This document shows positions 5,737-51,300 of a DNA stretch of 64,000 nucleotides, piece after piece. Where the stretch lies: contig NZ_JABXKL010000074.1 of assembly GCF_017114995.1 (NCBI RefSeq), positions 1-64,000 on the forward strand, given 5' to 3'. Each line of letters begins with the position of its first letter. Position 1 is the first letter of the stretch. This DNA is from Nostoc sp. NMS9 (GTDB taxonomy: Bacteria > Cyanobacteriota > Cyanobacteriia > Cyanobacteriales > Nostocaceae). The notes under the pieces are model-generated. The model had not been told where the DNA came from and did no database searches. It saw only the letters and a program-made list of their open reading frames with translations. Both the position numbers and the translations under genes were made by a program.

Positions 5737-6415
5737 CTGCCCACTTCCCCTTCCTGTCCTGTAGTACTGAGTACAACACCTCTAGTTTGCTGTCCTGTGG
5801 GCTTATATCATGTCCGCTAAATTACTTATTAAACCTGAAGAACCCCACCCCGCCAAAGCTATGCTTTGTCTCCCCTCGCCGCAGGCGGGGAGGGGCTGGG
5901 GGTGGGGTGCAATGACTGTGGAAATCATAACTATTTATACGGACATGATATTATGCATAGTTTGTACTCGGTCGGGTCAAGTGCCAATATACCACTTCTG
6001 GTAAAAGAACAAAACGTTACTTAACTGCACCTGTAAATTTTACCAGCCAAAATATGACTAACGTCCATCACAAAGACAAAGACGCGATAAATCGCCGTCT
6101 CTACAATAATCAGTTCTTTGTAGAGACGGCGATTCATCGTGTCTTGCCTTAATTGTAAATATGAAAGAAATTGATGAAAGGCTGAATCAATTCGTAGTTA
6201 GTTGAGATTTATGAGTTATAACTGGCATTTTTGAATAAATCTAACTGTAGACAGATGAAATGTGAAACGTTACTCTTATCAGAAGCGTGTTTTTTGGCGT
6301 TCAGACTATTTTCTAGTCTAGGCGCTAAAAAAAAGGAGTTAATCATTTAAAGATTGCCTCCTAATTTTACTGCATCCTGCCCACAGCCACCCCCAAGACA
6401 TAGGTTTTATCACTC
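5737..6415. other. Intergenic region between divergent kinase and GH65 genes
   Basis: I see no credible gene in these 679 bases. A short frame at 5810-6004 is created by a C/G-tract palindromic repeat (about 5842-5912, ACCCCACCCCGCC against GGGGTGGGGTG) and is not coding. A long inverted repeat lies at 6079-6145 and is listed separately. Promoters for both divergent genes must lie here, but I could not place them with confidence. Confidence 0.5.
6079..6145. repeat. Long inverted repeat (27-bp arms)
   Basis: The arms at 6079-6105 and 6119-6145 are complementary over 27 bases with two mismatches, around a 13-base loop. The core is GCCGTCTCTACA / TGTAGAGACGGC. I recall this palindrome as a dispersed repeat in Nostocales genomes. 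It is far (about 270 bp) from the GH65 start and would form a very stable hairpin if transcribed. Confidence 0.85.
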
Positions 6416-8707
6416 ATGCTCAACGTATCCACTCACGATTCTCAACAAAATCAGCAATTAATTGACAATACTGACTGGAACGTTATTGAAACGGAGTTTA
6501 ACCCGACGCAGTTACATCATAAAGAAACTGTTTTCACTCTTGGTAATGGGTTGTTAGGAGTGCGGGGTACGTTTGAGGAAGGGTATTCCCAAGATTTTCC
6601 AGCCACACTCATCCACGGTGTTTATGATGATGTGACAATTGCTCATACCGAATTGGTAAACTGTCCCAACTGGCTACCATTGGTGGTAAAAGTTGCAGGC
6701 GATCGCTTTAGTATGGACAGTGGTGAGATTCTCAACTACGAACGTCGGCTCGATCTACGCTTAGGTTTAGTTAGCCGTGATGTGCGGTGGCGTAGTCCTA
6801 GTGGTCATACCTTAGATTTTCACTTCGAGCGTTTCGCCAGTTTAGCAGACCAACATGTTTTGGCGATTCGCGCTCAAATCACATCGGTAGACTTTGAGGG
6901 TGAAATTACCGTTGAAGCCGGATTTGATAGCGAACCAGATACTCAAGGCATCAACCATTGGCGAACCTTAAACCAAGGTGGCATAGATCAGATTATCTGG
7001 TTAAACAGTCAAACTCTCTACTCAAATATTCAACTTGGGATGGCAGCTAAGTTAGTGGTAGATGGTGACGAGACTAGACTCGTGAGCATCGAAAATGCTT
7101 CTAGTTCTCCCATTTTGACAACCACCTTAGAGTTATATCCCGGAAAAACGGTAACTGTAGAAAAGATTGTCACCCTGTTTACTTCACGAGAGACAGAAAT
7201 CCCGATTGCCACCGCCTTACAAAGACTCGCTGATGAACCGAGATATACTACCCTATTGGCAGCTCACATTACTGCATGGGAGCAAGTGTGGCAAGACAGT
7301 GACATTATAATAGAAGGCGATCGCTTGGCTCAATTGAGCGTCCGTTACAATCTCTTCCAATTACTAGCGGTGACACCGCGTCACGACAACCGGGTAAGCA
7401 TTCCTCCCAAAACCCTTTCCGGTTTTGCCTATAGCGGACATATCTTTTGGGATACAGAAATATTCATCCTGCCCTTCCTCACCTTAACTCAACCAGCCCT
7501 AGCGCGTAACTTGCTCACCTACCGCTACCACACCCTACCAGGAGCGAGACGCAAAGCTCAAGAAGCAGGTTATCAAGGAGCGATGTTTGCTTGGGAAAGT
7601 GCCACTACTGGCGATGAAGTCACTCCGCGCTGGGTTCCGGCTCCCAACGGTGAATTAATCCGTATCTGGTGCGGTGACATTGAAGTGCATATCACTGCTG
7701 ATATCGCTTATGCAATTTTGCACTACTGGCAGACTACTAATGATGATGACTGGATGCGCGATTATGGCGCGGAAATTATCCTTGATACGGCTGTTTTCTG
7801 GGAAAGTCGGGTGCAGTGGAATCAAGAGCGCCACAGCTATGACATCCTAGATGTAATTGGCCCGGATGAAAATCACGATCGTGTTGATAATAATGCCTTC
7901 ACCAATCTTATGGTACAGTGGCATTTGCAGTCAGCTTTGCGACTGTGGGATTGGCTCAAACAAGCTTATCCTGAAACCTCAGCACAACTAGAGCAAAAAC
8001 TCAACTTAACTACAGAGCGTCTGCACCATTGGGCAAAAATCCAAGAGCGTCTATTTGTCAATGAAGATGCTCAAACGGGTTTAATTGAGCAATTTGAAGG
8101 CTTTTTCCAGCTAGAAGACGTTAACCTCGCTGATTACGAACCGCGTAGCAAATCTCTGCAAGGTTTGTTGGGAATTGAAGCCACCAGCCAAAAGCAAATT
8201 CTCAAGCAGCCAGATGTATTGATGCTCTTGTATTTATTGCGCGATCGCTACGACTATAACACTCTCGTCAGCAACTGGAACTATTACAACCAACGCACCG
8301 ACCACAGTTATGGTTCTTCACTAGGCCCAGCCATTAACGCCATCTTAGCTTGTGACCTCAATCAACCAACCGAAGCTTATACACACTTTCTGCGATCGGC
8401 CTTGGTAGACTTAGAGGATGTCAGACTGAACGCAGCCGAAGGAATTCACGCTGCCAGTGCTGGAGGAGTATGGCAAGCAGTAGTTTTCGGGTTTGCCGGC
8501 ATTCGGATGACTCAATTTGGCCCCATTGCCTGTCCCAATCTACCACCTAACTGGACGCGTTTGAAGTTTCGTCTGCAATGGCGTAACGAGTGGTATGACT
8601 TCGACTTACAAGCTGAAACAGAAGTCAAAGTTCCCCCCTTGGCAGATACACGCTCGAAAATTAGTCAGGTTATCTTCGACTTGGATGAAGTTTTAACCGA
8701 TAGCTAA
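6416..8707 (+). CDS. GH65 glycoside phosphorylase (maltose/kojibiose/trehalose type) with a truncated beta-PGM tail
   Basis: The 763-residue protein matches the usual GH65 architecture: an N-terminal beta-sandwich (FTLGNGLLGVRGTFEEGY near residue 40), an (alpha/alpha)6 barrel with WDTEIFILPF, the catalytic acid Glu485 in GPDENHDRVDNNAFTN, and a C-terminal beta sheet. GH65 enzymes phosphorolyse alpha-glucosides to beta-glucose 1-phosphate. The last 13 residues read QVIFDLDEVLTDS and stop. This is the first strand and HAD motif I of beta-phosphoglucomutase (usually FDLDGVLTDT), the enzyme that uses the product. The rest of that domain is missing, replaced by a dispersed repeat. Exact substrate cannot be read from sequence. 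Confidence 0.92.
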   Translation: MLNVSTHDSQQNQQLIDNTDWNVIETEFNPTQLHHKETVFTLGNGLLGVRGTFEEGYSQDFPATLIHGVYDDVTIAHTELVNCPNWLPLVVKVAGDRFSMDSGEILNYERRLDLRLGLVSRDVRWRSPSGHTLDFHFERFASLADQHVLAIRAQITSVDFEGEITVEAGFDSEPDTQGINHWRTLNQGGIDQIIWLNSQTLYSNIQLGMAAKLVVDGDETRLVSIENASSSPILTTTLELYPGKTVTVEKIVTLFTSRETEIPIATALQRLADEPRYTTLLAAHITAWEQVWQDSDIIIEGDRLAQLSVRYNLFQLLAVTPRHDNRVSIPPKTLSGFAYSGHIFWDTEIFILPFLTLTQPALARNLLTYRYHTLPGARRKAQEAGYQGAMFAWESATTGDEVTPRWVPAPNGELIRIWCGDIEVHITADIAYAILHYWQTTNDDDWMRDYGAEIILDTAVFWESRVQWNQERHSYDILDVIGPDENHDRVDNNAFTNLMVQWHLQSALRLWDWLKQAYPETSAQLEQKLNLTTERLHHWAKIQERLFVNEDAQTGLIEQFEGFFQLEDVNLADYEPRSKSLQGLLGIEATSQKQILKQPDVLMLLYLLRDRYDYNTLVSNWNYYNQRTDHSYGSSLGPAINAILACDLNQPTEAYTHFLRSALVDLEDVRLNAAEGIHAASAGGVWQAVVFGFAGIRMTQFGPIACPNLPPNWTRLKFRLQWRNEWYDFDLQAETEVKVPPLADTRSKISQVIFDLDEVLTDS

Positions 8708-8874
8708 GAGTTTACCTGCGATCGTCGTTCGCGCAGCGTCTCGAAGAGAAGATGTTGGCGCAGCCATCGCTTTTACAAAAGAAACCTCTCCCTAGTTTTA
8801 GTAGGCAAAACCTTCCCTCTCCGATTCAGAGAGGGACAGACTTGAACTTTAGTTCAAGGCAGGGAGAGGTTCTT
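8708..8874. repeat. Dispersed repeats between convergent genes
   Basis: About 8716-8758 holds GCGCAGCGTCTCGAAGAGAAG, a repeat related to the GCGAGACGCTACGCG stretch near 12180. Then AACCTCTCCCT (about 8784) and AGGGAGAGGTT (about 8865) form an inverted repeat around an inner CCCTCTCC/GAGAGGG stem. The hairpin lies between the convergent GH65 and Roco-TIR genes and could stop transcription from either side. A 62-codon frame here is an artefact of the repeats. Confidence 0.6.
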
Positions 8875-11697
8875 CTAGCGAGTAACTGCTGTTTTAATCT
8901 TCTTACAGATATCCACCCAAGCTTTATTCTCTTGTGCTGAGTTCAGACTGTCTAAAGGTTGATTCGGAGGGTGCGCTGACTGATACTTTTCAATTTCTGT
9001 TTCCTCGTAGCTGCTAAAACTCAACGGTATCCAAATAATCGTAAGTCCTTCGGCTTCAGCCGCATCTAACAATGGCGGTAACTCATTCTCGGCAATAAAG
9101 TCTGATGCTAAAAAATCGGGGCTAACCAACAATACTGCCACTTTTGCTGCTGCTAAAGCATTTTCAATTTCTTTGCGCCACTCAGCACCGGGTTGAATTT
9201 TGGTATCGTCCCACACAAGCATATTTTGGTTACGAATCATTGGTTTGAGGTGTTTCTGGAGTTTGGTAAGCCACTCCTGATCTTGATGACTATAGCTGAT
9301 GAAAACTTGATTTCTGGTTATGGGTTCAGACATAGGTATTTGCAGAGTTGGTGACGTCGGTAAAACATCGTCAATTAGTCTGCGGACATCTACCATATCA
9401 CCGCTATCTTGGCACTGGATTTGGTCGCGATTATTTTCTCGGAATTTGTACAACACGTCTCGGCGGTAAAAATGAGGCGTTTGACTATCCTTACAGCTTT
9501 CACAGTTGCAGGGAACAAGTGTTTGATATTGCAGACGTTCGTAAGAGTTATGAATTTTTTCTAGTTCATGGATGATAACTGCTAGCCGTTCTTTCTTGTT
9601 TTTTCCTGCTACGCGGACTTTAATTTCTCGTTGATTGTAGTGTTCAATCACTTCAGCACGGGTTTGGTCTTTAGCAAGAACAACGCCTGTTTTCCAAACT
9701 AGGGTTTGTTGTTCAATATCAGAGTGCATTTCGACTATAAAGCGGGTGAGAATACCTTTCGGCATGAAGTCATATTTATAACGCAGGATTAGATTATTGG
9801 ATTCATCCCAATTGAAATCAGGTTGGTTGACAGAGAGTAATTGAGGTGCGATATAAGTGCCGGGACGACTAGGTATTTCGTAACACAGTTTAAATTTCAT
9901 CATTAGCCGCAACAGTTCTGGTCGCATATCGGCATATTTGTTTTCGTGCCAAATATTTTTTAAATCATTGCGATCAAATTTACCCAGGTTTTGAATTACT
10001 TGTGGATTATCTAACACTTTGTAAACGGCATCTGTACCCCAAGTGGGCTTGAGAATCACGGTTTTTATTAAAAAGTCATCATCTTGGAAGTGAAGGCATA
10101 CACCTAAATCATGCAGATAGTCACTGAGTTGGAGTTTTTCCTCCTGTTTAGTAAAACCATGTTGCTCACAGATGTTTAGATATTCTTCCAAGCTAATATA
10201 TTCGCGAGAGTTACCTTCTAAAGCTTCTCGCACTTTCACCCAGGTTTTAGGGAGTTCTATTCCTACATGAGGTAGGTTAGTAATATAATACTTAATTTGC
10301 TTTAAGATTTCCGGCAGACCTCGATTAGTGGCCAAGTTTGTAGTAAGTGTTTCTTGAAAATTAGTGAATTCACGCCGTAACTCCCGCTCATTTATTTCTC
10401 GTTTGCGCTCCTGCTTTTCATTTTTGATAATTAACAAAGGACTATTACCGCTCAGTAATTCAACTACATTTAACCAGTAGTAAAAATCTGTGTCTTCTTT
10501 GCGAGTATCAGCAACCAAGGCATAAAAAGAGCGTTTTGTAAGGAAAAATTGGTGGGTAGCATGGTAAATTTCTTGACCACCAAAGTCCCAAATGTTGACC
10601 TGAAATTCTCTGTTATTGTCAAGCAAGAACTTCCATTGAATAATATCAATGCCTTCGGTGGTATTTTCATCTTGTTGTAACGTATATTTATTGTCTTGAA
10701 TTTTTTTGGCTAGCGTAGTTTTACCTGCACCTCCTTCTCCTACAATGAGTAATTTGGCTTCGTAGAGGCGATCGGTTTGTTGTTCTATTTGTTGCCTGCA
10801 AAAGTCAAGAATTGCTTTAAACCCTTTCGTGATAATTTCTGGTGGAGGTGATTCTAAAGGATTACTGTCGAGGTTGAGGAATTGCAGGTTGGTGAGTTGG
10901 CCAAATTCCGGTGGCAGACTGCTCAGTTGATTATTGCTAAAGTTGAGGGATTGCAGGTTGGTGAGTTGGCCAAATTCCGGTGGCAGACTGCTCAGTTGAT
11001 TATTGCTAAAGTTGAGGGATTGCAGGTTGGTGAGTTGGCCAAATTCCGGTGGCAGACTGCTCAGTTGATTATTGCTAAAGTTGAGGGATTGCAGGTTGGT
11101 GAGTTGGCCAAATTCCGGTGGCAGACTGCTCAGTTGATTATTGCTAAAGTTGAGGGATTGCAGGTTGGTGAGTTGGCCAAATTCCGGTGGCAGACTGCTC
11201 AGTTGATTACTGAAGAGGTAGAGCGTTTGCAGGTTGGTGAGTTGGCCAAATTCCGGTGGCAGACTGCTCAGTTGATTACTGAAGAGGTAGAGCGTTTGCA
11301 GGTTGGTGAGTTGGCCAAATTCCGGTGGCAGACTGCTCAGTTGATTACTGAAGAGGTAGAGCGTTTGCAGGTTGGTGAGTTGGCCAAATTCCGGTGGCAG
11401 ACTGCTCAGTTGATTACTGAAGAGGTAGAGCGTTTGCAGGTTGGTGAGTTGGCCAAATTCCGGTGGCAGACTGCTCAGTTGATTACTGAAGAGGTAGAGC
11501 GTTTGCAGGTTGGTGAGTTGGCCAAATTCCGGTGGCAGACTGTTCAGTTGATTACTGCTGAGGTTGAGGTATTGCAGGTTGGTGAGTTGGCCAAATTCCG
11601 GTGGCAGGGTTGTTAAGCCTTTGCCAGAAAGGTCTAATTGTGTCTTCTTATCTCTGACAGCTTTTTCAATAATTTGCAGCAGTTCTTCGTTAGTCAT
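8875..11697 (-). CDS. LRR-Roc-COR-TIR protein (bacterial Roco with TIR effector)
   Basis: The 940-residue protein has, in order: eleven 23-residue leucine-rich repeats (about 25-285) of the form FGQLTNLQ.L.L.SNQLSSLPPE; a Roc GTPase domain with P-loop GEGGAGKTT at 320-328 and WDFGGQEIYH as switch II; a COR dimerisation region (about 490-720); a CNCESC cysteine motif (about 730); and a TIR domain from about 790 (VFISYSHQDQEWL) to about 910. The TIR keeps a glutamate pair (870/872) where NAD-cleaving TIRs have their catalytic Glu. Roco proteins are GTP-driven dimer switches. A TIR output suggests NAD depletion or signal production on ligand sensing, possibly antiphage; that role is inference. 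It is convergent with the GH65 gene. Confidence 0.93.
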   Translation of the reverse strand: MTNEELLQIIEKAVRDKKTQLDLSGKGLTTLPPEFGQLTNLQYLNLSSNQLNSLPPEFGQLTNLQTLYLFSNQLSSLPPEFGQLTNLQTLYLFSNQLSSLPPEFGQLTNLQTLYLFSNQLSSLPPEFGQLTNLQTLYLFSNQLSSLPPEFGQLTNLQTLYLFSNQLSSLPPEFGQLTNLQSLNFSNNQLSSLPPEFGQLTNLQSLNFSNNQLSSLPPEFGQLTNLQSLNFSNNQLSSLPPEFGQLTNLQSLNFSNNQLSSLPPEFGQLTNLQFLNLDSNPLESPPPEIITKGFKAILDFCRQQIEQQTDRLYEAKLLIVGEGGAGKTTLAKKIQDNKYTLQQDENTTEGIDIIQWKFLLDNNREFQVNIWDFGGQEIYHATHQFFLTKRSFYALVADTRKEDTDFYYWLNVVELLSGNSPLLIIKNEKQERKREINERELRREFTNFQETLTTNLATNRGLPEILKQIKYYITNLPHVGIELPKTWVKVREALEGNSREYISLEEYLNICEQHGFTKQEEKLQLSDYLHDLGVCLHFQDDDFLIKTVILKPTWGTDAVYKVLDNPQVIQNLGKFDRNDLKNIWHENKYADMRPELLRLMMKFKLCYEIPSRPGTYIAPQLLSVNQPDFNWDESNNLILRYKYDFMPKGILTRFIVEMHSDIEQQTLVWKTGVVLAKDQTRAEVIEHYNQREIKVRVAGKNKKERLAVIIHELEKIHNSYERLQYQTLVPCNCESCKDSQTPHFYRRDVLYKFRENNRDQIQCQDSGDMVDVRRLIDDVLPTSPTLQIPMSEPITRNQVFISYSHQDQEWLTKLQKHLKPMIRNQNMLVWDDTKIQPGAEWRKEIENALAAAKVAVLLVSPDFLASDFIAENELPPLLDAAEAEGLTIIWIPLSFSSYEETEIEKYQSAHPPNQPLDSLNSAQENKAWVDICKKIKTAVTR
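10865..11620 (-). repeat. 69-bp tandem repeats encoding the LRR array
   Basis: Eleven 69-bp units encode the LRRs. Five successive units of the TLYLFSNQLSSL type and four of the SLNFSNNQLSSL type are virtually identical within each type at DNA level, third codon positions included. The array is open on both strands, so a long spurious plus-strand frame (10882-11616) runs through it. Such identity means recent unit amplification or strong gene conversion, and a risk of miscounted copies in short-read assembly. Confidence 0.95.
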
Positions 11698-11852
11698 TTC
11701 GGGTTTTACAGAGGCGATGCCTGACGACGAGTTGCTGCTTGGACGCGCAGCAGAGAAATTGAGCTAATTAATAATGTAGCCCGTATCAAGCGATTGCATT
11801 GTGGCGATCGCAGGCTCCTACGCCTCTAGACTCGACCTCAAAACCTCACCAT

Positions 11853-12126
11853 TCCACCTGTGAACATCAACTGTCGAGCAAAAAGGGCGATCGCTCCACC
11901 TGTGAACACCAACTGTCGAGCAAAAAGGGCGATCGCTCCACCTTTGAACACCAACTGTCGAGCAAAAAGGGCGATCGTTCCACCTCTGAACACCAACTGT
12001 CGAGTAAAAACAGCGATCGTTCCACCTGTGAACACCAACTGTCGAGCAAAAAGGGCGATCGTTCCACCTGTGAACAGCAACTGTCGAGCAAAAAGGGCGA
12101 TCGCTCCACCTCTGAACACCAACTGT
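11853..12126. repeat. 42-bp tandem repeat, 6.5 units, each with a GCGATCG palindrome
   Basis: Units start at 11853, 11895, 11937, 11979, 12021, 12063 and 12105 (the last cut at 22 bp). The consensus runs TCCACCTGTGAACACCAACT then GTCGAGCAAAAAGGGCGATC then GC. Variation is limited to a few positions, such as CCTGTG/CCTTTG/CCTCTG and GCAAAAAGGGC/GTAAAAACAGC. There are no unique spacers, so it is not a CRISPR array. Confidence 0.95.
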
Positions 12127-12271
12127 AATAATTTATAAACTTTTCTGTTTCTTCTCTTGGCGCTCTTGGCGGCTTCTCTGCGAGACGCTACGCGAAAGCG
12201 GTTCGATAATTTTCATAATTTGCTTCAGATAATAGGTGCGATCGCGGTAAAATATTTAACTTGTTGCATTT

Positions 12272-12311
12272 GATTTTAAAAATCACAGCCAAACACTTTT
12301 AAAACATCTTC
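12272..12311. mobile_element. Decayed terminal fragment of the MITE
   Basis: Bases 12280-12311 (AAATCACAGCCAAACACTTT then TAAAACATCTTC) match the reverse complement of the left end of the 18707-18871 copy at 29 of 32 positions and are followed by TTA, as in the intact copies. No matching opposite end is seen nearby, so this is a solo or degraded end. Confidence 0.7.
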
Positions 12312-12466
12312 TTAATAAATGCTTGTGTTGTGAAGGTAATTTTCTCTGGTGATATACTCAACATCTAAGTATGATTCCGTACAGAAAGTTTTTGTTCAGA
12401 ACATTTACGAGATGGGAACTCTAGGTAATAAGCTTAATTACAGTATCCCACCCAACACTGCCAATC

Positions 12467-15277
12467 ATGTCCCATCCTGCTCACTCCACATTGGGCCAAT
12501 CTTCTTACCCTCGCTTGACTAGAAGCCTAAGTGCTGTTGAAAGTTGGGGCTTTGGTTTGACAGCTCATATTTCTTGGACAGCATTAGTTCCAGCGATTCA
12601 TGCTGCTCTCGGTTCCCAAGCTATTTTTGTCTGGATACCTGCGGTGATTTTCGGAATGCTGCTCAACTATCAGGTAAAACGCTTGGGTATGCATTTCATC
12701 AATGTAGCTGGAGGAACACCTAACTATGCTACCAAGCTACTGCAAAACTACCCAGGACTAGCTCGTTATGCAGCAATTGGATACCTCCTCAATTGGGTTT
12801 CTTACTTGTCAGTGAATACAATCGTACTCAGAGATTTAATTAAAGTAAATTTGCAGGCGCTGGGTATTACCTGTCCAGATATATTTCTGGATATTAGCTT
12901 TACACTGTTACCTTTTATCGTGGCGTTTAGTGGGACTCGCGCCCTGAGTATTTTACATTTGTTTTTTGTAATTCCAGCCTTTGGACTGCTAATGACCTTC
13001 TGTGTCCAAGGTCTTGGCTGGTTAGCGTTTTCTCCGGTGAGTCCTGGGTTTTTTCCTAGCAGTTGGTCATCTTTGAGCTTTGTAGATTGGGCAAAGTGGT
13101 TCTTTTTCGTCACTTATGCAACCTATAGCTGTGAAACGGCTTCTTCCTTTGTCGCCGATAGCCGCAACCCCACTCAAACGCTACGGTTTCTAGATGTTGC
13201 AGCCTGGATGATGCCACCCATCTTTTTGGGAGGTTCTTGGGTAGTGATGCGGTTAGCAACAAATCCCAACCTTAAAGACAATGCTTTTCTGAATCTTGCG
13301 GCAGCTTCCCTGCCCTTTTGGGGAAGATTCACTGGTGTAAGTGTTTCTTTTTTGCTAGTAGCTGCTTGTCTACTAGGTTCGGCAACGGTGGTTTCTAATT
13401 GCCCGCGAATTTTGTATCAACTGGCCTTAGATAACCACATTTCACCAGTATTTTCCGTTGTCTCGCGTCGGGGTGTGTTTGTCCCAGCATTGACATTAAC
13501 ACTGGTGTTGTGCTTAATCTATCTGATTTGGGGAGATGTCGCGCGAATTGTGGCTGTTGGTAACATTGGCTGGTTTGTCTCCTTTATGTTACTGCATTTG
13601 GGGCTTTGGCTCCGGCGCGCTCGCCCGGAAGTTTTGTTCCCTGGCATATCTCTGGCCATTCTGCTGTTAGAAGTTGTGGTGCTATTGGTGGGCGGATTTG
13701 CCTGGGGTTGGCTCAACTTGCTGATTGGGCTATTATTTCCCATTGGTGTTATGGGAATAGATGCAGTAATTCGCCGTATGGATTTCCCTGCTTTCCATCC
13801 TGATTGGTGGATGCGGCGATATCGCACGCGCCCTGTAGTAATTATCAAAGACTCAGTAATTCTTCAGGTAAGCATCCTGATTTTTTTACTGTGCAGCGCC
13901 GTGGCAGTTGGCTGGTTATTTGGCGTCAAACTTAATAAAGTGGCAACTGCCGGCGGTGAGAATATATTTGTGGTGCTACTGATGAGTGTGGCATTTGTGG
14001 GAGTAGCGATCGCTTGTTGGACAAGTTTACCACAAGTGGTAGCGATCGCAGAAGCGCGAGAAGCCGCCGAACACCTATTTACTGTCGCCCAAGATGGTAT
14101 TTTAGTCGTAGACGATCGAGGCATTATCCAGCAAGCTAACCCAGCCACCGAATCGTTTTTTGGTGTCAACCCATTTGAGTTGCGGGGAAATCACCTCAAC
14201 AAATGGCTACCCGCATTAGTCTACTATCCAGAGCAGTGGATAAAGCGTAGCGAACAAATTCTAATCGGCAATGGAAAAAACAGAACTCTGGAAGTTTCCA
14301 TCTCAGACCGACCCCATCGGGATTTTCAGGAATATGTCGTCATTCTCCACGACATTACCCAGCGCAAACAAGCTGAACAGATATTGCGATACTCAGAAGC
14401 ACAATTGCGCCAAGAAGCAAAGCAGCTAGTATCTCAATTGGTGCATAGTGAAAAAATGTCAAGTTTGGGGCAGTTAGTAGCAGGTGTAGCCCATGAAATC
14501 AACAACCCAGTCAACTTTATTTATGGCAATATCAATTATGCCAATCAATATATCCAAGATTTATTGAGACTGCTGCAATTATACCAGCAAAACTATCCTA
14601 ATCCAGCAAAGGAAATTCAAAAAGAAACAGAAGCGATCGACTTAGATTTTCTGATTGCAGACTTGCCCAACTTGCTAACTTCTATGACAGTTGGTGCGGA
14701 ACGAATCACAGAAATTGTCTTATCTCTGCGAAACTTTTCCCGGTTAGATGACGCAGAGATGAAAGCTGTGAATATCCATGAGGGTATAGATAATACGTTG
14801 ATGATTTTAGAACATCGCCTCAAACCTAAATCTAACAATCAAACAATTGAGGTGATTAAAGAATACGGCAATCTGCCATTAGTAGAATGTTATGCTGGAC
14901 AACTGAATCAAGTCTTTATGAATCTTCTCGCAAATGCGATCGATGCTTTAGAAGAGGCAGTGGAAAATGGTGAGTGGGAAGTAGGGGAAAAAGCGCTCTC
15001 TAATCCCCAGATACGCATTCAGACTAAACTCACTAGCGAAAATCAGGTAGTTATTCGTATTGGCGACAATGGTATTGGCATTCCAGAAAAGGTACAAAAA
15101 CAATTATTTGAACCATTTTTTACGACTAAACCAGTTAATAAAGGTACTGGGTTAGGTTTATCTATTAGTCATCAGATTATCACCCAAAAACATCAGGGAA
15201 AATTAGAATGTATTTCTGCTCCTGGAAAGGGGACAGAATTTGTAATTGTAATTCCGCTAAATCAGCAGGCTATATAA
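12467..15277 (+). CDS. APC-family permease fused to PAS-histidine kinase
   Basis: Residues 1 to about 515 form an APC-superfamily permease-like module with about 12-13 hydrophobic helices; the N-terminus with SAVESWGFGLTAHISW suggests an amino-acid permease-like fold. A PAS domain follows (about 531-640, LFTVAQDGILVVDDRGIIQQAN), then a HisKA domain with His676 in GVAHEINNP and an ATPase with MNLLANAIDALEEA, GDNGIGIPE and GTGLGLSIS. The layout parallels transporter-linked kinases such as CbrA, where transport or binding of a solute is coupled to kinase activity, though CbrA uses an SLC5-type module. It sits between two Roco genes. No receiver domain or adjacent regulator is present, and the substrate is unknown. 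Confidence 0.9.
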   Translation: MSHPAHSTLGQSSYPRLTRSLSAVESWGFGLTAHISWTALVPAIHAALGSQAIFVWIPAVIFGMLLNYQVKRLGMHFINVAGGTPNYATKLLQNYPGLARYAAIGYLLNWVSYLSVNTIVLRDLIKVNLQALGITCPDIFLDISFTLLPFIVAFSGTRALSILHLFFVIPAFGLLMTFCVQGLGWLAFSPVSPGFFPSSWSSLSFVDWAKWFFFVTYATYSCETASSFVADSRNPTQTLRFLDVAAWMMPPIFLGGSWVVMRLATNPNLKDNAFLNLAAASLPFWGRFTGVSVSFLLVAACLLGSATVVSNCPRILYQLALDNHISPVFSVVSRRGVFVPALTLTLVLCLIYLIWGDVARIVAVGNIGWFVSFMLLHLGLWLRRARPEVLFPGISLAILLLEVVVLLVGGFAWGWLNLLIGLLFPIGVMGIDAVIRRMDFPAFHPDWWMRRYRTRPVVIIKDSVILQVSILIFLLCSAVAVGWLFGVKLNKVATAGGENIFVVLLMSVAFVGVAIACWTSLPQVVAIAEAREAAEHLFTVAQDGILVVDDRGIIQQANPATESFFGVNPFELRGNHLNKWLPALVYYPEQWIKRSEQILIGNGKNRTLEVSISDRPHRDFQEYVVILHDITQRKQAEQILRYSEAQLRQEAKQLVSQLVHSEKMSSLGQLVAGVAHEINNPVNFIYGNINYANQYIQDLLRLLQLYQQNYPNPAKEIQKETEAIDLDFLIADLPNLLTSMTVGAERITEIVLSLRNFSRLDDAEMKAVNIHEGIDNTLMILEHRLKPKSNNQTIEVIKEYGNLPLVECYAGQLNQVFMNLLANAIDALEEAVENGEWEVGEKALSNPQIRIQTKLTSENQVVIRIGDNGIGIPEKVQKQLFEPFFTTKPVNKGTGLGLSISHQIITQKHQGKLECISAPGKGTEFVIVIPLNQQAI

Positions 15278-15534
15278 TTGTCAACATTATTTGACGTGGT
15301 TAAAATTTTAACCCAAATAAAATAAATAGGTACAGTTTTGTGTAAAAGCGTAGCGTTTTTAATACAATATAACGCATTAACAATGCAAGCCGACGCATTA
15401 ACAATGCAGGGTATGGCCAAATTTAATTCGCTATACAATTAATGAAATTCTGTACCAAGCTGAATCTACTTTTGACATTAGAATAAGAGTCTGGCTATTA
15501 CTCCGATTTTGGTAGTGAGAGAAAGGATTTGCTC
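15278..15534. other. Intergenic region with short direct repeats
   Basis: In these 257 bases the sequence GACGCATTAACAATGCA-type repeat occurs twice (about 15370-15410: CGCATTAACAATGCAAGC and CGCATTAACAATGCAGGG). The GCATT...AATGC core can form a small hairpin. The only other element is the ribosome binding site for the next gene (GAAAGGAT at 15521-15528). Confidence 0.5.
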
Positions 15535-18500
15535 ATGGCAAGAGATAAAGCTTATCAAGAAGCAGAGCAGCGTATTGAAAAGGCACGGCAAGAGGGAGCA
15601 ATAGAACTCGATCTCAGCAACATAGAACTCACTGAGATACCAGAAGCTGTTGCATCCCTGACTGGGTTGCAACAGCTTGACCTTGACAATAACCAACTGA
15701 CCGAACTGCCAGAAGCGATCGCATCCTTGACTGGGTTGCAACAGCTTGACCTCCACAATAACCAACTGACTCAACTGCCAGAAGCTGTTGCATCCCTGAC
15801 TGGGTTGCAACAGCTTGACCTCCACAATAACCAACTGACCGAACTGCCAGAAGCGATCGCATCCTTGACTGGGTTGCAACGGCTTTACCTCCGGAACAAC
15901 CAACTGATCGAACTGCCAGAAGCGATCGCATCCCTGACTGGGTTGCAACAGCTTTACCTCCAGAACAACCAACTGACTCAACTGCCAGAAGCGATCGCAT
16001 CCTTGACTGGGTTGCAACTGCTTTACCTCGACAACAACCAACTGATCGAACTGCCAGAAGCTTTTGCATCCCTGACTGGGTTGCAAAAGCTTTACCTCAA
16101 CAACAACCAACTGATTGAACTGCCAGAAACGATCACATCCCTGACTGGGTTGCAAACGCTTTTCCTCTCCGACAACCAACTGACCGAACTACCAGAAGCT
16201 TTTGCATCCCTGACTGGGTTGCAAAAGCTTAACCTTGAAAACAACCAACTGACCGAACTGCCAAAAGCAATCGCATCCCTGACTCAGTTGCAAGTGCTTT
16301 ACCTCCGCAACAACCCTCTTAACCCTGATCTTGCAGCCGCTTACAAACAAGGCACAGAAGCTGTTTTGCAATACCTGCGGGCAAAGGCAGAAGCCCAGAT
16401 AACTCTGAATGAAGCCAAACTGATTCTAGTTGGCGAGGGTGAGGTGGGCAAGAGTTGTCTGTTGGGTGCATTGCGGGGAGATGAATGGGAGGATGGTCGC
16501 CCCACGACTCACGGGATTGAAATTAAATCTGTAATCGTCACCGATCCCGACAGTGGCACAGAGATATCACTCAATGGTTGGGATTTTGGCGGTCAACGGG
16601 TTTATCGACCGACGCACCAGTTGTTTTTCAGTGCGCCAGCCGTGTATCTAGTTATCTGGAAACCACGGGAAGGCCCCCAGCAGGGCTTTGTCAAAGAGTG
16701 GATTACACTGATCAAAAATCGGGAACCGGATGCGAAGGTATTAGTAGTTGCAACCCACGGTGGCCCTGGACAGCGACAACCAGACATTGACAGACAAGAA
16801 ATTCTCGCTCAATTCGGCAAAGATACGGTAATCAATTTCTTCCATGTAGACAGCAAACCCAACCAAGATACGACACATTGCAGTGGGATTGCAGAATTAA
16901 AAGATGCTATTGCTCGTGTCGCTGCATCTCTTCCCGAAATGGGGCGTTCCGTTCCAGGAAAGTGGCAGCGGGTGCGGGAAACCTTACAGACAAGTGACAA
17001 AGCCTATCTCCCCTACAATGATGTCATTGCCATCTGCGCTAAAGAGGGAATCGATGAGGAGCAAGCAGAACTGTTCCTTCGCATCTCCCATATATTAGGG
17101 CATTTTATCCATTATCATAACGACCCAACACTACGCGATATCGTCATCCTCAAACCCGACTGGCTGGCAAAGGCGATCAGTTTCGTGCTAGATGATGAAA
17201 CGACACGCAAACGCAACGGTTTAGTGGAATTTCAGCATCTCAGCCAGTTGTGGAGCCATCCCCCATTTGCAGGCGAGGAAGGCTACCCCTCAAAATTGCA
17301 TCCAATCTTTCTGCGGCTGATGGAACGCTTTGATCTATCCTACAAAGTGGTTTTCGATCCATCAGAAACTAGCAACACCAGCCTGATTGCTCAACTTGTT
17401 CCTGACACACGCCCGGAGCCATTGCCCAATTGGGGAGAGCAACCAGAAGCGGGAGATAGACAACAGGTGCAAATCTGCCGCATTGTGGACAGTCGCGGAC
17501 AGTTTGCAGTTGCAGAAGGATTGTTTTACCAGTTGATTGTCCGGTTGCACAAATACTCACTGGGACGGGCGAATTATGAAGACAGCATCCACTGGCAACG
17601 GGGCTTAATGCTTGACAATGATTACAACGGTCGGGCATTGCTGGAATATGTTGGCACTGATGTAAAAATTACGGTGCGGGCAGCTTATCCAGAAAGGTTC
17701 CTGTCATATCTCACGGAAGAGATTAAATGGCTAGTCGAGAATTTCTGGGAAGGATTGCGTTGTAATGTGATGGTTCCCTGCATTGAAACTTGCGGTATGA
17801 ATGCGCCTGGAAACGGACTGTTTGAGGTACAAAAACTAATTGAAAGCAAAAAGAAAAATCGCCATGAGTTCCCGTGTCCCATTTCCGGGTGTGGCGAATG
17901 GCAAAACATCGATCAATTGCTGAATAACGCGCCAACTGCTCAACACCCATCCCAAGCAATTGGCATTGAGCAGTTCCGAGGTATTGTGAAAGAGGAGTTA
18001 AAGGTCATTCGCCGATATTTAGTTATCTTGGATCGTCGAGATGAAGAACGCTTTCAGAAATTAACTCAGGATCAGCGTATAATTTTAAGTCAAGTCGATC
18101 AGCAGTTTGCAACACTCATGCAGATGCTCACCGATGAAGCAAAAGACGGCCCGCGCCTGTTCAGCTTTAAGCCTATCGATCCAAAATTTTTTGATAGCCG
18201 CAGATGGGTCAGAGCTAAGTTTCAACTTACCCTCTGGTGTGAACACGCTCGTCTACCACTTCCAGCCTTAAATCCCGATGATCAGACGAAAGGAGTCTAT
18301 GAATTAGAGTTTCCCCGCGAGTGGTTCACCAAAGCAGCCCCCTTTCTCAAACTGTTGACGACAACTCTCAGCCTAGTCTTACCTGTCGCAGCTTCCGCAA
18401 CCAAGTTGATGCTTGATGACACTTCATACAAAGGCATTGAAGAACAACTCGATCTGGGACAGAAAACTACCGAGTCTTTCTTGAAAGGAAGCGATATCGC

Positions 18501-18690
18501 TTTGGCTGGGAAGTCTAAGAGTGAATCTTCTTTGTTGGAAGGCGATGCAATCCGCGCCCAAGGCTCTATCTTACGAGAATTACACGCCCTTCTGAAAGGA
18601 AAAGATCCTAGTTTTGGTGGTCTAGTGCGGGTGCAAAACAAACGCCGTGAATTTCTCTGGGTTCATCCTCAATTTGTAGATGAATATTAA
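15535..18690 (+). CDS. LRR-Roc-COR protein (second Roco), C-terminal domain of unknown function
   Basis: ATG 15535 is chosen because AAAGGA lies 7 bases upstream; a TTG at 15529 is also possible. The 1051-residue protein has ten 23-residue LRRs (.AIASLTGLQ.LYL.NNQL.ELPE), a Roc GTPase with P-loop GEGEVGKS from residue 300 and WDFGGQRVYRPTH, a COR region (about 440-700), cysteine pairs near 760-790 (CIETCG, CPISGCGEW), a predicted helical stretch and a C-terminal domain of about 200 residues. The last part carries a 23-residue hydrophobic stretch (LKLLTTTLSLVLPVAASATK) that might insert in a membrane, followed by a polar region. No TIR or kinase domain is present. It probably works as a GTP-regulated sensor; its link to the Roco-TIR gene 4 kb away is inference. 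Confidence 0.9.
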   Translation: MARDKAYQEAEQRIEKARQEGAIELDLSNIELTEIPEAVASLTGLQQLDLDNNQLTELPEAIASLTGLQQLDLHNNQLTQLPEAVASLTGLQQLDLHNNQLTELPEAIASLTGLQRLYLRNNQLIELPEAIASLTGLQQLYLQNNQLTQLPEAIASLTGLQLLYLDNNQLIELPEAFASLTGLQKLYLNNNQLIELPETITSLTGLQTLFLSDNQLTELPEAFASLTGLQKLNLENNQLTELPKAIASLTQLQVLYLRNNPLNPDLAAAYKQGTEAVLQYLRAKAEAQITLNEAKLILVGEGEVGKSCLLGALRGDEWEDGRPTTHGIEIKSVIVTDPDSGTEISLNGWDFGGQRVYRPTHQLFFSAPAVYLVIWKPREGPQQGFVKEWITLIKNREPDAKVLVVATHGGPGQRQPDIDRQEILAQFGKDTVINFFHVDSKPNQDTTHCSGIAELKDAIARVAASLPEMGRSVPGKWQRVRETLQTSDKAYLPYNDVIAICAKEGIDEEQAELFLRISHILGHFIHYHNDPTLRDIVILKPDWLAKAISFVLDDETTRKRNGLVEFQHLSQLWSHPPFAGEEGYPSKLHPIFLRLMERFDLSYKVVFDPSETSNTSLIAQLVPDTRPEPLPNWGEQPEAGDRQQVQICRIVDSRGQFAVAEGLFYQLIVRLHKYSLGRANYEDSIHWQRGLMLDNDYNGRALLEYVGTDVKITVRAAYPERFLSYLTEEIKWLVENFWEGLRCNVMVPCIETCGMNAPGNGLFEVQKLIESKKKNRHEFPCPISGCGEWQNIDQLLNNAPTAQHPSQAIGIEQFRGIVKEELKVIRRYLVILDRRDEERFQKLTQDQRIILSQVDQQFATLMQMLTDEAKDGPRLFSFKPIDPKFFDSRRWVRAKFQLTLWCEHARLPLPALNPDDQTKGVYELEFPREWFTKAAPFLKLLTTTLSLVLPVAASATKLMLDDTSYKGIEEQLDLGQKTTESFLKGSDIALAGKSKSESSLLEGDAIRAQGSILRELHALLKGKDPSFGGLVRVQNKRREFLWVHPQFVDEY
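15650..16315 (+). repeat. 69-bp repeats encoding the second LRR array
   Basis: The repeat GCATCC(C/T)TGACTGGGTTGCAA recurs every 69 bp, usually after GCGATC or GCTGTT/GCTTTT, and encodes IASLTGLQ. The units are more diverged than in the Roco-TIR gene. Variation is concentrated at the codons for the exposed LRR positions (LDLDN, LDLHN, LYLRN, LYLQN, LYLNN), the pattern expected of a recognition surface. Confidence 0.9.
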
Positions 18691-18706
18691 TTGACAACGG
18701 ATATTA

Positions 18707-18871
18707 GAGGATGTTTGAAAAGTGTTTGACTGTGATTTTAATCACCCCCCTTAATCCCCCCTTTACAAGGGGGGAAACCAGAAAATCCAGTCTTCTCCCC
18801 TTTACAAGGGGAGGGTTAGGGAGGGGTAAAAAAATATTTGATACATCAATCACGACTTTTCAAACATCCTC
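18707..18871. mobile_element. MITE-like element, copy 2 (165 bp)
   Basis: It has the same 17-bp terminal inverted repeats as the element at 2847-3090, again flanked by TTA on both sides (18704-18706, 18872-18874), in the opposite orientation. The end sequence ATATTTGATACATCAATCAC matches the left end of copy 1 in reverse complement. The interior is shorter, with one CCCCCCTTTACAAGGGGGG-like palindrome and a second related half. No coding capacity. Confidence 0.88.
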
Positions 18872-18917
18872 TTAGAGCTATTTCGTAATTTTTCATGATT
18901 ATACAGGAAACAGAGTA

Positions 18918-45361: not shown

Positions 45362-48300
45362 ATGATGATTGCATTACCCGGATTTCAGATTGTCACTTTG
45401 TTAAAAGCAGGGGTAAAAGCAGTCATATACCGTGGAATTAAGGTTAAAGATCAGTGTCCGGTAATTATCAAAGGGCTACGTCCAGAACAGTGTACACCCA
45501 ATAATATTGAACAACTCAAACATGAGTATGCGATCGCTCAAAGGTTAAATAGCGCCGCCGCCCTCATTGTCTACGCCTTAGAAATGCATCAGGGAATCCC
45601 TTATTTAATTATGGAGGATTTTCAGGCGCGATCGCTCGATCAATTGCTAGACCAATTTCAACAGCCTGTGCCGTTTCTGAAGATTGCGATTGAAATCACT
45701 AGCAAACTTGCACAAATTCACACTTATCATATTGTCCACAAGGATATTAAGCCGCAAAATATCTTAATTAACCTCGAAACTAGTCAGGTCAAAATTGCTG
45801 ATTTTGGAATTGCTACGTTCATTCCATACCAGCAGCAAATGGTTAGCAGTTCCAGTCGCATTGAAGGCAGTCTACCTTATTTATCACCTGAGCAAACCGG
45901 GCGGATGAATCGAGGAATTGACCATCGCAGCGATTTGTATTCTCTGGGAATCACCTTTTATGAGATGCTGACAGGTCAGCTACCATTTCAAGGCAAAGAC
46001 CCCTTAGAATGGGTGCATTGTCATATTGCCAAATCTCCACCATCCCCGAAAAAGCTAAACTCTGATATTCCCCAAATGCTCTGTGACATCATCATCAAAT
46101 TGCTGTCGAAGGTTGCAGAACAGAGGTATCAGAGCGCTTTAGGTTTGCAATTTGATCTGGAACGGTGCTTAAAGCAATTGGAGACAACTGGACAAATCCA
46201 ATCCTTTGTTTTGGGTGAGCAAGATATCTCAGAGCGCTTTCAAATTCCTCAAAAATTGTATGGGCGAGAACCAGAGATTGCCAAGCTTTTACAAGCATTT
46301 GAACGAGTTGTTAGTCAAGGGAAACCAGAACTGGTGTTAGTTTCTGGCTATGCTGGGGTTGGTAAATCTTCTCTGGTGAAGGAGATTCACAAGCCCATTG
46401 TTAGAGAACGCGGGGTTTTTATCTCTGGTAAATTTGATCAGTACAAACGAGATATTCCTTACTCCACCATTGTTCAAGCTTTTCAAACACTGGCTCGACA
46501 AATTTTAACGCAGCCTGAAAATCAACTTGCTACCTGGAAAAAGCGAATACAAGCAGCATTAGGGAACAATGGTAGATTAATCACAGATGTAATTCCAGAA
46601 GTTGAACTAATCGTTGGAGAACAGCCTCCTATACCAGAGTTGGGGCCTGCCGAATCTCAAAACCGATTCAATTTGGTGTTTCAAAATTTTATCAGCGTCT
46701 TTGCTCAAAAAGAGCATCCACTCACTGTCTTTTTAGATGATATGCAGTGGGCAGACAGCGCTACTTTAAATTTAATTCAAACCGTCATTACTGGGTCTAG
46801 TATCCAATATCTCTGCTTCATTTTGGCTTTTCGAGATAACGAAGTAGATGTTGTGCATCCCTTTAGTTTGATGATGGACAAGATTTGCCAGTATGGAGCC
46901 AGAACAACTGAAATTCTCCTTACTCCCTTGAATATTGTTTATATAAATCAGTTGATTGCTGATACCTTGCATAGTTCAGTAGAACGAGTAGAACCTCTTG
47001 CTCAATTGATTATCCAAAAAACTGACGGTAATCCCTTTTTTGTCAATGAGTTTCTGAAAACACTCCATCAAGAAAATCTGCTGAATTTTGACCCCCCTCA
47101 ATCCCCCACCCCCCTTGGTAAGGGGGGACAGAGGGGGGTAAAAGGGGGGTGGCAATGGAATTTAGCTCAGATTGAAGCCCAAGGTATGACAGATAATATT
47201 GTCAGTTTGATGATTGGGCGGATGCAAAAACTGCCAGCCGCAACTCAACAGGTGCTGAAGTTAGCCTCCTGTATTGGTAATCGCTTTGATTTAGAAGTTT
47301 TAGCAATCGTTGGTGAACAATCTATTGAAGAAACAGCGAATGCACTTGTTGATGCAATTTTAAGAGGATTAATTATCCCCATAGAGTCAGATGAAACTGC
47401 CCAGAAAAACTATCGTTTCTATCATGACCGAGTTCAACAAGCTGCATACTCCTTAATTGCTGATGAATCAAAGTCGGCAGTTCACCTGACAATTGGACGG
47501 CTTTTGCTGAAAAATGCTAGTCCTGAACAAATGAACGAGCAAATATTTGATTTAGTCAATCAACTCAATTTCGCTGTGGATCTAATTATTGAGCAGACAG
47601 AAAAAGATGAATTGCTACGGTTGAATTTAATCGCTGCTAAGAAAGCAAAAGCCTCTACAGCCTATACTCCTGCTAAAAAGTTTTTTAGCGTTGCCATGAA
47701 TCTTTTACCTAAAAATTCCTGGATTGAACAATATGAACAAACATTTACTCTATTCAGAGAACTAGCTGAGTGTGAATTCTTAATAGGAAATTTAGGACAA
47801 GCGGAAGAATTATTTGAATTACTATTTATTAAAGCAGCATCTTATGTAGATAAATCTAATATTTATATGCTGCAAATCAGACTCTATCAAGTTGCAGGGA
47901 GGTATGAAGAGGCGCTGACATTGGGATTAGAAGCTTTAAAACTTTTTGGGGTGACATTCCCTGACACAAATGAGGAAGTGCAGGCTGCGATCGCAATTGA
48001 AAAAAACCAGGTATTAACCAATTTAGGTAACAGACAAGTCTCTGATATAATTAATGCTATAGTAATCCAAGATCCAAATATTAAAACAGTGATTAGTCTG
48101 TTGACAACTTTGGGGCCACCTACTTATCTCGGTAGACCTGATCTCTTTCCCTTAGTCGTACTTAAAGCAGTTAACTACTCACTCAAGTTTGGTAATACGG
48201 AAGATTCCTGCTTTGCCTACAGCATGTATGCCATGTTATTGGTTTCCATCTTCCATGATATTCCCACAGGGTACGCATTTTCTGAGATGACAATTCAATT

Positions 48301-51300
48301 AAATGAAAAGTTGCATGACTTGAAACTTAGAGGAGTTGTTCTGCACATTCATGGAAGTCATATTAATGTTTGGCGTAACCATATTGCTACCGATATTCCC
48401 TTTTTAGAGCGGGGATTTATCGGCTGTGTGGAAGCCGGTGATGTGACGATGGCAAACTACAATGGTTATCAAGGCTCGTGGCAAATTATCCAATTAGGTT
48501 TTCCACTTACAGAAACATACAAATCTCTAGAAAAATATACTGCATTCGCCCGCCAGTCTAAACATGAGACTGTCTATCAGACAATCAAACTACAGCAGAT
48601 GCTACTGATGAATCTGCGCGGACTGACTCACCAAAATCTAACTCTAAGTAATGATGAATTTGATGAATCATCTGCTTTATCTATCATTACAGATGCAGGT
48701 TTTGTCAGTGGAATTATTTTTTATCATATTATAAAAGTAATTATATTTTTTACTTATGACCAATATCCAGAGGCATTGAATTCTGCCTTGAAATTGTCTA
48801 ATTTTCCAGTTACAACACTGGCATTACCAATTGAAACAGATTACATTTTATATTACTCCCTGACTCTCACGGCTCTTTATTCAAGAGTATCTTATCAAGA
48901 GCAAGAGCAGTTTTTACAAACCCTAAAATCCCATCAGCAGCAATTGCAATATTGGGCTAATCACTGCCCTGCAAACTTTTTACATAAGTCTCAGTTAGTA
49001 GCTGCTGAAATAGCTCGAATTGAAAATCGTGACTTGGAAGCAATGCGTCTGTATGAGCAATCAATTGCTTCAGCCCGTGAGCAAGGATTTGTACAATATG
49101 AAGCTTTAGCTCATGAGTTAGGCGCTAAGTTTTACTTAGAGCAGAAGTTTGAATTAATTGCCAAAACTTACTTGCAAGAAGCTAAAAATGCTTATGTACG
49201 CTGGGAGGCATCTGCTAAAGTTAAGCACCTCGAAGAGTACTATCCCCAGCTATTGCCACAACAACAGCTTCTCTCTAACGGAACGTTTTTCAGCACAGGT
49301 GAATACCTAGACTTCTTATCGGTCGTTAAAGCCTCTCAAACCATATCTAGTGAAATTGTGCTTTCGCAGTTGTTGAAGACATTAATGCAGATTGTCATTG
49401 AGCAAGCAGGAGCAGAGATTGGTTATTTATTGCTTGAATATGAGCAAAAATTGGCGATCGAAGTAGAAGCTAAATTTAATCCCCAAGCTGAAAAAATCAA
49501 TGTTTATCGACCTGTATTGGAGGGTGAAATTTCACAGGTTATTCCTCAATCAATACTGAATTATGTTCAGCGAACTCAAGAAACAGTGATTTTGCAGAAT
49601 GCCACTGAGCAGAATATGTTTTCCAAAGACGAGTATGTAATTAAAAAGCAACCTAAATCTGTACTTTGTTTACCAATCACCCATCAGTCGAAATTACTTG
49701 GTATTTTATATTTAGAAAACAATCTGATTTCCAGCGCCTTTACACAGGAGAAACTTTCCGTACTGGAAATATTGACAGTTCAAATTGCTATTTCTCTAGA
49801 AAATGCTCGTCTTTTTCAAGGTCTAGAAAATAGTCAAGAAAAACTCAATCTGGCGTTAAAATCTGCCCAAATCGGTGTTTGGAGTTGGGATATTGCCAAC
49901 GATCGCTTTGATTGGGATGAGCAAATTTATCAACTATTTGGGTTAACACCTGAAACTTTTGCTGGAACTTCCGAAGCAATTTTAGTTCGCCTGCATCCAG
50001 ATGATCGAGCATTGCTGGTTCAATCGTTGAGCCGAGCGATTAACGAAGGTGTGGAACATGATTTAGAATATCGAATTATTCAAGATGACGGCAGTATCGG
50101 CTACCTAGCCTGCCGAGGAAAAGCCTTTTTCAATGAAGCTGGTAAAGCCACACACATGAGTGGTGTTGTGCTTGATATTACACATCGCAAACAATCTGAG
50201 GCAGAACGAATCCAACTGATTCAAGAGCAAACCGCCCGACAAGAAGCAGAAGCCGATCAACAACGGGCAGCGTTTTTGGCTCAAATCAGTGCAATACTCG
50301 CCTCTTCCCTTGATTACGAAAGGACGCTAACAAGCGTGGCAAACCTGGCTGTGCCTTACTTTGCCGATTGGTGCAGCGTTGATCTGCTGCAAGACAACCA
50401 ATCAATTAATCGGGTAGCAGTTACTCACCGTGATCTAGAGAAAGTTAAGCTCGGTTGGGAACTTCATCAGCGTTATCCCAGAGGGTTGGATGCAGCTGAA
50501 GGTGTGCCGAAAGTGGTGCGTACAGGAGTTGCAGAAATGGTAGCAGAAATTTCAGATGCAGCCCTAGCAGCAGCCATCAAAGATCCAGAACATCTCCAGA
50601 TTCTGCGTGAACTTGGCTTAAAGTCATGTATAGTAGTTCCCTTGATGGCACGCGGACGGATTTTTGGTGCAATTTCCTTTGTGACTGCTGAATCAGAACG
50701 TCGTTACAGCACGGCTGACTTGTCACTAGCAAAAGATGTTGCCCATCGAGGTGCGATCGCCATTGATAATGCCCGCCTTTACCAAGAAGCGCAGCAAGCA
50801 CAAACAACAGCAGAGCGAGCATTAGAGCGAATTGCCCGTCTTCAATCCATCACAGCTGCTCTTTCAGAATCCCTGACACCAGCCCAAGTATCTGAAGTCA
50901 TTGTAGAGCAGAGCATGGCTGCCTTGGGAGCCAGTTCTGCCCTTGTTGCCTTGGTGAATGACAGTAAAACTGAACTGGAAATTGTGCGGGCGGTTGGCTA
51001 TAAACAGGATTTGATAGATGCTTGGCGTATTTTTGCCATCGATTCACCCTCTCCACTAGCAGAAGCTGTGCGAACTGGGAAACCTATTTGGGCACAAGCA
51101 ACAGAAAATCGGGTAGCTCATTACCCACATTTAGCAGAAATTTATGCTCAATATGATTTTAATGCCTGGATTTCTATTCCTTTGATGGTAGAAGGTTGGG
51201 CAGTTGGCGGTATAAGTTTGGGATTTACTCAGCCTCAACAACTGAGTGGAGAAGATCAAGCATTTATTTTGGCTGTTGCTCAACAATGCGCCCAAGCGAT

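Follow-up and report, generated by a model that had tools for sequence, protein, structure and literature searches.

An LRR-Roc-COR-TIR protein of Nostoc sp. NMS9 in a family that exchanges its C-terminal domains: a candidate intracellular receptor

The window analyzed here, a stretch of 64,000 nucleotides of the cyanobacterium Nostoc sp. NMS9 (contig NZ_JABXKL010000074.1, positions 1 to 64,000), contains two genes for leucine-rich repeat (LRR) proteins of the Roco type. We have focused on the first, Roco1, a protein of 940 aa with the architecture LRR-Roc-COR-TIR that is coded on the reverse strand at 8875..11697 (open reading frame list and Pfam). It belongs to a family in which similar Roc-COR cores carry different C-terminal domains, exchanged at fixed sites, while the LRR arrays turn over. 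Roco1 is probably a single-protein intracellular receptor with an exchangeable effector, likely giving a phage or non-self alarm through the NAD+ chemistry of its TIR. The second gene, Roco2, is an independent neighbour.

Effector exchange behind a conserved Roc-COR core

The genome of Nostoc sp. NMS9 (8.09 Mb in 110 contigs) gave 11 Roc matches in a Pfam search, nine of them above the cut-off and one of the other two lying inside translation factor IF-2. With the LRR-free parts of Roco1 and Roco2 we searched 59 relatives, including 34 Nostoc genomes that, together with the window's own, make a comparison set of 35. The 53 Roc-COR proteins compared are loci chosen among the best of the matches listed plus that of the window, a subset of all Rocos. 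Behind cores 34-91% identical to that of Roco1 we found TIR tails of type A (20 proteins) and type B (18), strongly hydrophobic tails (4), helical tails (3) and others (8), the last a mixed class that includes L142, with a TIR-B coded further downstream, and L153, without a tail. These classes were named from short sequence motifs, and the hydrophobic label of L126 was assigned by eye. Pfam recognized TIR_2 in both of the type-B tails submitted to it; of the tails without TIR, seven were submitted and none reached the cut-off of any family.

On the Roc-COR tree (52 rows), the tail label needs at least 14 changes, the least possible number being 4, and the starred branches force at least seven for TIR-A. 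The approximately unbiased (AU) test rejected TIR-A as one group on the core data (p 2.8e-8; 48 rows, excluding four distant ones and a fragment) and the orthologue clade on the TIR data (p 0.0012; 20 rows); such p-values are valid only if the groups are named before the trees, and TIR-A was named from the tails, the orthologue clade from the core tree. Between the window and L121, L131 and L146, protein identity was 63-66% for the cores and 90-92% for the TIRs, and identity at fourfold sites was 0.31-0.37 and 0.73-0.79, respectively. The opposite was found with L114 of genome G015, where the core reached 91% (0.83 at fourfold sites) and the TIR 58% (0.55 over 31 fourfold sites). The TIR cassette of Roco1 (residues 797-938; 8886..9308, reverse strand, 423 bp) is 90.1-91.5% identical in DNA to those of L118-L121, and the match stops at the limits of the domain, the cores of these loci being 63-69% identical in protein. 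The discordance in both directions, the fourfold sites and the AU tests support recombination between core and TIR.

The exchange can be seen at a single chromosomal place. In 11 genomes the Roco adjoins a CHAT-domain gene, in seven of them also next to MurT/GatD-type genes. The tail at this site is TIR-A in G009, G015, G016 and G022, hydrophobic in G005, G013 and G033, of another hydrophobic kind in G019, and helical in G024, G029 and G032. In the DNA pairs compared, those involving L118 and L124, the Roc-COR region is collinear at 86-92% identity. Between tail classes this collinearity stops at nucleotides 1433-1482 from the Roc start, one pair excepted (1328), and the flank resumes at 83-91% identity 111-183 nucleotides past the stop codon on the query side and 17-177 on the other side. 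Tails of different kinds gave no match with each other in this comparison. The CHAT gene is a marker of the site and not a partner of the Roco, because one match is found in each of the 35 Nostoc genomes; in the other 24 genomes no intact Roco adjoined it among the matches listed, with remnants in G017 and G030. In the CHAT gene tree, which with 11 rows has low power, the tail type was unlinked (5 changes, the least possible being 3; shuffled labels needed 6.0 on average, and 5 or fewer in 46 of 200 cases), and TIR-A as a single clade was rejected (p 0.02).

G015 also has a Roco at the window's own site, between the same flanking genes. Flanks and core stay near 90% there (mostly 0.82-0.97 in steps of 150 bases), and the value drops to 0.69-0.75 over 8816-9265, which corresponds to the TIR. 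Besides, this Roco has 5 LRR units against 11 in Roco1, and the kinase copy nearby has one in-frame stop.

Some relatives have less common arrangements. L142 (G016) is a Roco with a 61-aa tail and a separate TIR-B stretch at 6332-6931, downstream of the stop, i.e. an interrupted allele. P0121 of Nostoc minutum NIES-26 (1359 aa) has two TIRs in tandem after Roc-COR and is perhaps an exchange intermediate. In P0272 (1108 aa), a single record from the metagenome-assembled genome of Nostoc sp. DedSLP03, an HsdM/N6-methylase is fused to Roc-COR with a helical tail, a link of Roc-COR to restriction-type genes. Roc-COR relatives (57-71% identity, H1-H5) also occur on plasmids, from Nostoc, Calothrix, Acaryochloris and Pseudanabaena, and these are a possible vehicle of spread. 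At L132, L139, L145 (own genome, C31) and L148 a TIR-B Roco is adjoined by two TIR genes on the opposite strand, the nearer one 0.5-0.8 kb off; at L145 they code for proteins of 546 aa (TIR and TPR) and 246 aa (TIR), those of the other three loci being similar or larger, and the four loci could be a Roco-TIR-TPR module.

Switch, repeats and TIR of Roco1

The earlier note on this DNA, made from the sequence alone, had described two LRR-Roc-COR genes, and both are indeed present, with LRR, Roc, COR-A and COR-B detected by Pfam in each. In Roco1 all four are above the Pfam cut-offs, with 86.9 bits for Roc, 167.2 for COR-A and 162.2 for COR-B, and the order Roc then COR is that of a Roco. The Roc GTPase domain (10417..10755, reverse strand) has its P-loop GEGGAGKT at residue 320, the switch II motif DFGGQE (DxxGQ) at 371 and a G4-like NEK at 426; P-loop and switch II are intact, and their K and D are each conserved in 51 of 52 cores. 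COR-A and COR-B occupy residues 483-777 (9367..10251, reverse strand). The Pfam scan found neither NACHT nor NB-ARC. Since Roc stands where one of these would be, Roco1 is not an NLR by membership, although it may function in an NLR-like way.

The LRR array of Roco1 (10819..11577, reverse strand) consists of 11 units of 23 aa, of which four are distinct, units 2-6 being identical to each other in DNA and units 7-10 likewise. Owing to these two blocks, it is the most uniform of the 44 arrays with at least five units (mean within-array identity 0.80, the next 0.79). By counts made with one regular expression on mostly draft genomes, the three nearest orthologues have 5-6 units and the eight members of the Roco1 clade with TIR-A range from 5 to 17. 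L112 has a core 85% identical to that of Roco1, yet the best matches of its LRR units to those of the window average 0.54. Both the copy-number range and this low match indicate that the array turns over fast. The most variable positions in the clade are 2, 3, 5, 7 and 8 of the LxxLxLxxN strand, plus 12 and 16; variation at exposed positions is usual for LRRs. The array of Roco1 is thus freshly expanded and not freshly diversified. The ten or more near-identical repeats attributed to both proteins apply well to Roco1 and less so to Roco2, which has 9 units by the same expression, and the idea of a fast-evolving surface holds for the exposed positions among the units of the clade, the near-identity seen here being a recent tandem expansion.

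In the C-terminal part, Pfam detected TIR_2 at residues 798-895 (1.7e-14), and a TIR fold is predicted. The domain matched ThsB1, a TIR protein of Thoeris, with 57.8 bits; the scan for a ThsA partner took in part of the open reading frames of the window. Glu870 and Glu872, described in the earlier note as a retained pair, are both present, but only Glu872 (codon 9082..9084, reverse strand) never varies across the 20 TIRs of type A, position 870 being E, D, K, Q or R. Glu872 falls in a predicted helix (866-883) and, with an offset of one residue, corresponds in the alignment to the EL-motif Glu of bacterial TIRs, which is catalytic elsewhere. The evidence supports a well-formed TIR with one conserved candidate catalytic Glu.

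Proposed function and its alternatives

In the mechanism that we propose, the LRR array would bind a ligand that most likely signals phage infection or some other non-self, the Roc-COR GTPase unit would be the switch and the C-terminal TIR the output. Activation would gather the TIRs to cleave or cyclise NAD+, stopping the cell. Along the family, effector cassettes recombine onto the conserved Roc-COR near the end of COR-B and within some 20-180 nucleotides past the stop codon, with LRR arrays expanding and contracting meanwhile. While the exchange and the repeat turnover are seen in the sequences, we infer ligand sensing, GTP-driven switching, NAD+ chemistry and defence. From the interpretation in the earlier note we retain an LRR-Roc-COR receptor with a TIR, in a family evolving like recognition receptors, and abandon the two-gene system and the role of the kinase.

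According to passages of a 2019 review, very little is known about the function of bacterial Rocos, and the prokaryotic ones identified so far belong to the LRR-RocCOR group (PMC6337361). Roco1 has LRR, Roc, COR-A and COR-B in common with prokaryotic Rocos such as that of Chlorobium tepidum (the family of LRRK2, known from Parkinson disease) and differs by its C-terminal TIR. The combination itself has precedents: TIR is named among the domains of ROC-COR proteins of the placozoan Trichoplax in parts of one paper (PMC4104024), a TPR-ROCO-TIR of the red alga Chondrus in parts of another (PMC11378527), and COR proteins with TIR already stand in databases. In the portions of the literature covered by our search we found no description of effector exchange in bacterial Rocos. 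There is also a likeness to fungal NLRs, which (PMC4986451) likewise have combinatorial effectors on similar switches, high internal conservation of repeats and changes in repeat number; they use NACHT or NB-ARC with WD, ANK or TPR, whereas Roco1 is bacterial and has Roc with LRR and a C-terminal effector. The evolution of the Roco family, with exchange of effectors at fixed sites, repeat turnover and patchy presence, resembles that of fungal NLRs. Brown algal ROCOs, candidate immune receptors of the LRR-ROC-COR type, are similar in shuffling LRR units (PMC11378527); they shuffle LRR exons, while the Roco1 family swaps the effector and duplicates whole 69-bp LRR units in a gene without exons. 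Plant TIR-NLRs (RPP1, RUN1, Roq1) differ in that Roco1 has no NB-ARC and the reverse domain order. Bacterial TIR-STAND/AAA proteins have the same type of TIR (63-74% identity) and a P-loop STAND/AAA where Roco1 has Roc-COR.

Several observations weigh against the proposed reading. The G4 motif of Roco1 is non-canonical (NEK), and the candidate Glu872 lies one residue further along than in the aligned TIRs. The fold list includes TLRs and MyD88, and TIR adaptors have the same fold. PADLOC gave matches to TIR models plus a weak one to mad8, and a search of 50,697 phage records gave no match. LRR copy numbers taken from drafts may reflect misassembly of identical repeats. Regarding the exchange, tails of one type still group together on the core tree: the 14 changes compare with a mean of 26.7 after shuffling, and none of 200 shuffles went so low. 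With 14 changes and yet such clustering, exchange is recurrent but not free. With the TIR data, the rejection depends on L114 and L115, whose TIRs are on a long branch. The identities of core and TIR are correlated over 171 pairs (Spearman 0.38), and the signal therefore combines inheritance with exchange. Finally, a signalling role outside immunity could be compatible with exchanged outputs too.

This last possibility, that the Rocos are signalling GTPases of development, stress or motility whose outputs have been reshuffled by drift and recombination, seems to us unlikely but worth keeping in mind. Dictyostelium Rocos work in chemotaxis, cell division and development, as stated in passages of PMC4104024, and the parts of the literature that we searched yielded no phage assay of such proteins. 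On the other hand, the exchange of outputs, two types of TIR among them, the patchy distribution, the sites found empty and the turnover of LRRs are a better match for conflict genes than for housekeeping signalling. About equally doubtful is an adaptor role for the Roco1 TIR, which would then bind proteins, lack NADase activity and recruit some other effector, such as a separate TIR protein. The one-residue offset of the Glu, the fold shared with TIR adaptors and the four TIR-B loci that adjoin two separate TIR genes would agree with such a role. However, Glu872 is invariant and within a predicted helix, and the GH65 and kinase genes next to Roco1 have no TIR by Pfam.

Much less credible is the system proposed in the earlier note, in which Roco1 and Roco2 would be sensor and executor with the kinase between them. 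The two genes are indeed 3.8 kb apart and divergent, a closeness that becomes less striking because the genome has nine Roc matches above the cut-off. The neighbourhood conservation across the 35 Nostoc genomes came out against the pair, with neither conservation nor linkage. A gene of the Roco1 clade is found in nine of them (the copy of G028 with a different TIR type) and a Roco2 orthologue in ten, two of which are broken (G019 and G023). Both occur in four genomes, about 2.6 being expected (Fisher p = 0.39, orthologues counted by hand), and restricting the count to TIR-A orthologues and intact Roco2 genes gave p = 0.35. They are adjacent only in the window's genome, being 2.17 Mb apart on one contig in G007 and on different contigs in G015 and G028. 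Actually, each one lies in its own present/absent segment: that with Roco1 spans 8714..12365, replaced by 184 bp at the empty site of G029, and that with Roco2 15288..18904, replaced by 319 bp at the empty site of G014.

Unequal selection instead of recombination, with the TIR under stronger purifying selection than the core as the Spearman value of 0.38 might suggest, can practically be dismissed, since the discordance runs both ways (G015 with core 91% and TIR 58%, G016 with core 63% and TIR 90%), also at fourfold sites, and same-site tails differ in kind with no DNA match among them.

A similar core in the same chromosomal place with different outputs is how immune receptors tend to evolve. 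Beyond Roco1, we advance tentatively, as somewhat less probable than its contrary, that the bacterial LRR-Roc-COR proteins of this family form a class of innate immune receptors, NLR-like in function but built on a Ras-type GTPase, their effectors swapped as cassettes at fixed sites. If so, an early role in immunity would become plausible for the wider family to which LRRK2 belongs, and a small-GTPase switch would stand beside NACHT and NB-ARC as a route to an NLR-like receptor. A near-identical core at one site with four outputs across one genus would be a natural experiment on a generic switch, sensing and immunity.

Roco2 and other genes of the window

Roco2 (15529..18690, forward strand, 1053 aa, TTG start in the open reading frame list) has LRR-Roc-COR by Pfam and a conserved C-terminal region, and represents a separate subfamily. 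This region (residues 806-1053; 17944..18687, forward strand) matched no family in Pfam, gave no convincing relative in the PDB by sequence comparison, and occurs with Roc-COR in the relatives listed. A protein search with it gave 981 proteins, shorter ones falling outside the length range, and the 120 listed all have COR domains, mainly from Nostoc, Microcoleus and kin. A paralogous group of Rocos (7 rows) also has C-termini that match it, at 21-25% identity. Within its subfamily the region seems to be a stable component, in contrast to the tails of the Roco1 family. In Nostoc sp. NMS9 it trails its own core (74-82% against 94-96%), and given the weak synonymous signal no exchange is claimed for Roco2. 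The membrane helix suspected here is marginal, the best 19-residue Kyte-Doolittle mean being 1.59, whereas a stretch of the Roco1 TIR reaches 1.62 and the hydrophobic tail found in related Rocos 2.62. With such hydropathy, a membrane toxin was rejected. A PDB profile match to a designed TIM barrel (2.5e-4) is not credible, and NCBIfam matches to LRR-bearing secreted effectors were below the cut-off and confined to the LRRs.

The gene between the two Rocos (12467..15277, forward strand), described before as a permease-kinase fusion, codes for a PAS-histidine kinase with PAS, HATPase_c and HisKA (just below the cut-off), its long N-terminal half being without Pfam match. It is a chromosomal neighbour, because the order GH65, kinase, Roco2, hydantoinase persists without Roco1 in G002, G029 and G006. 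As a third partner it was rejected, an orthologue (at least 82%) being found in 21 of the 34 other Nostoc genomes regardless of the Rocos; of these 21, four are incomplete, fragmented or interrupted by a stop.

Upstream of Roco1, the intergenic region between the divergent genes contains 6.5 copies of a 42-bp tandem repeat (11853..12126), and open reading frames over similar repeats adjoin L113 and L139. Elsewhere in the window, a 2376-aa protein (45362-52492, forward strand) combines Ser/Thr kinase, AAA_16, GAF, PAS, histidine kinase and receiver. A 2212-aa hybrid histidine kinase (53063-59701, reverse strand) has a long tandem array of HAMP (12-13 Pfam stretches), and its gene contains about 10.5 copies of a 276-bp repeat. 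Another receptor-like design is found in the same genome on contig C51 (L171:2228-5530), with TIR, WD40 repeats and a Ras-like GTPase.

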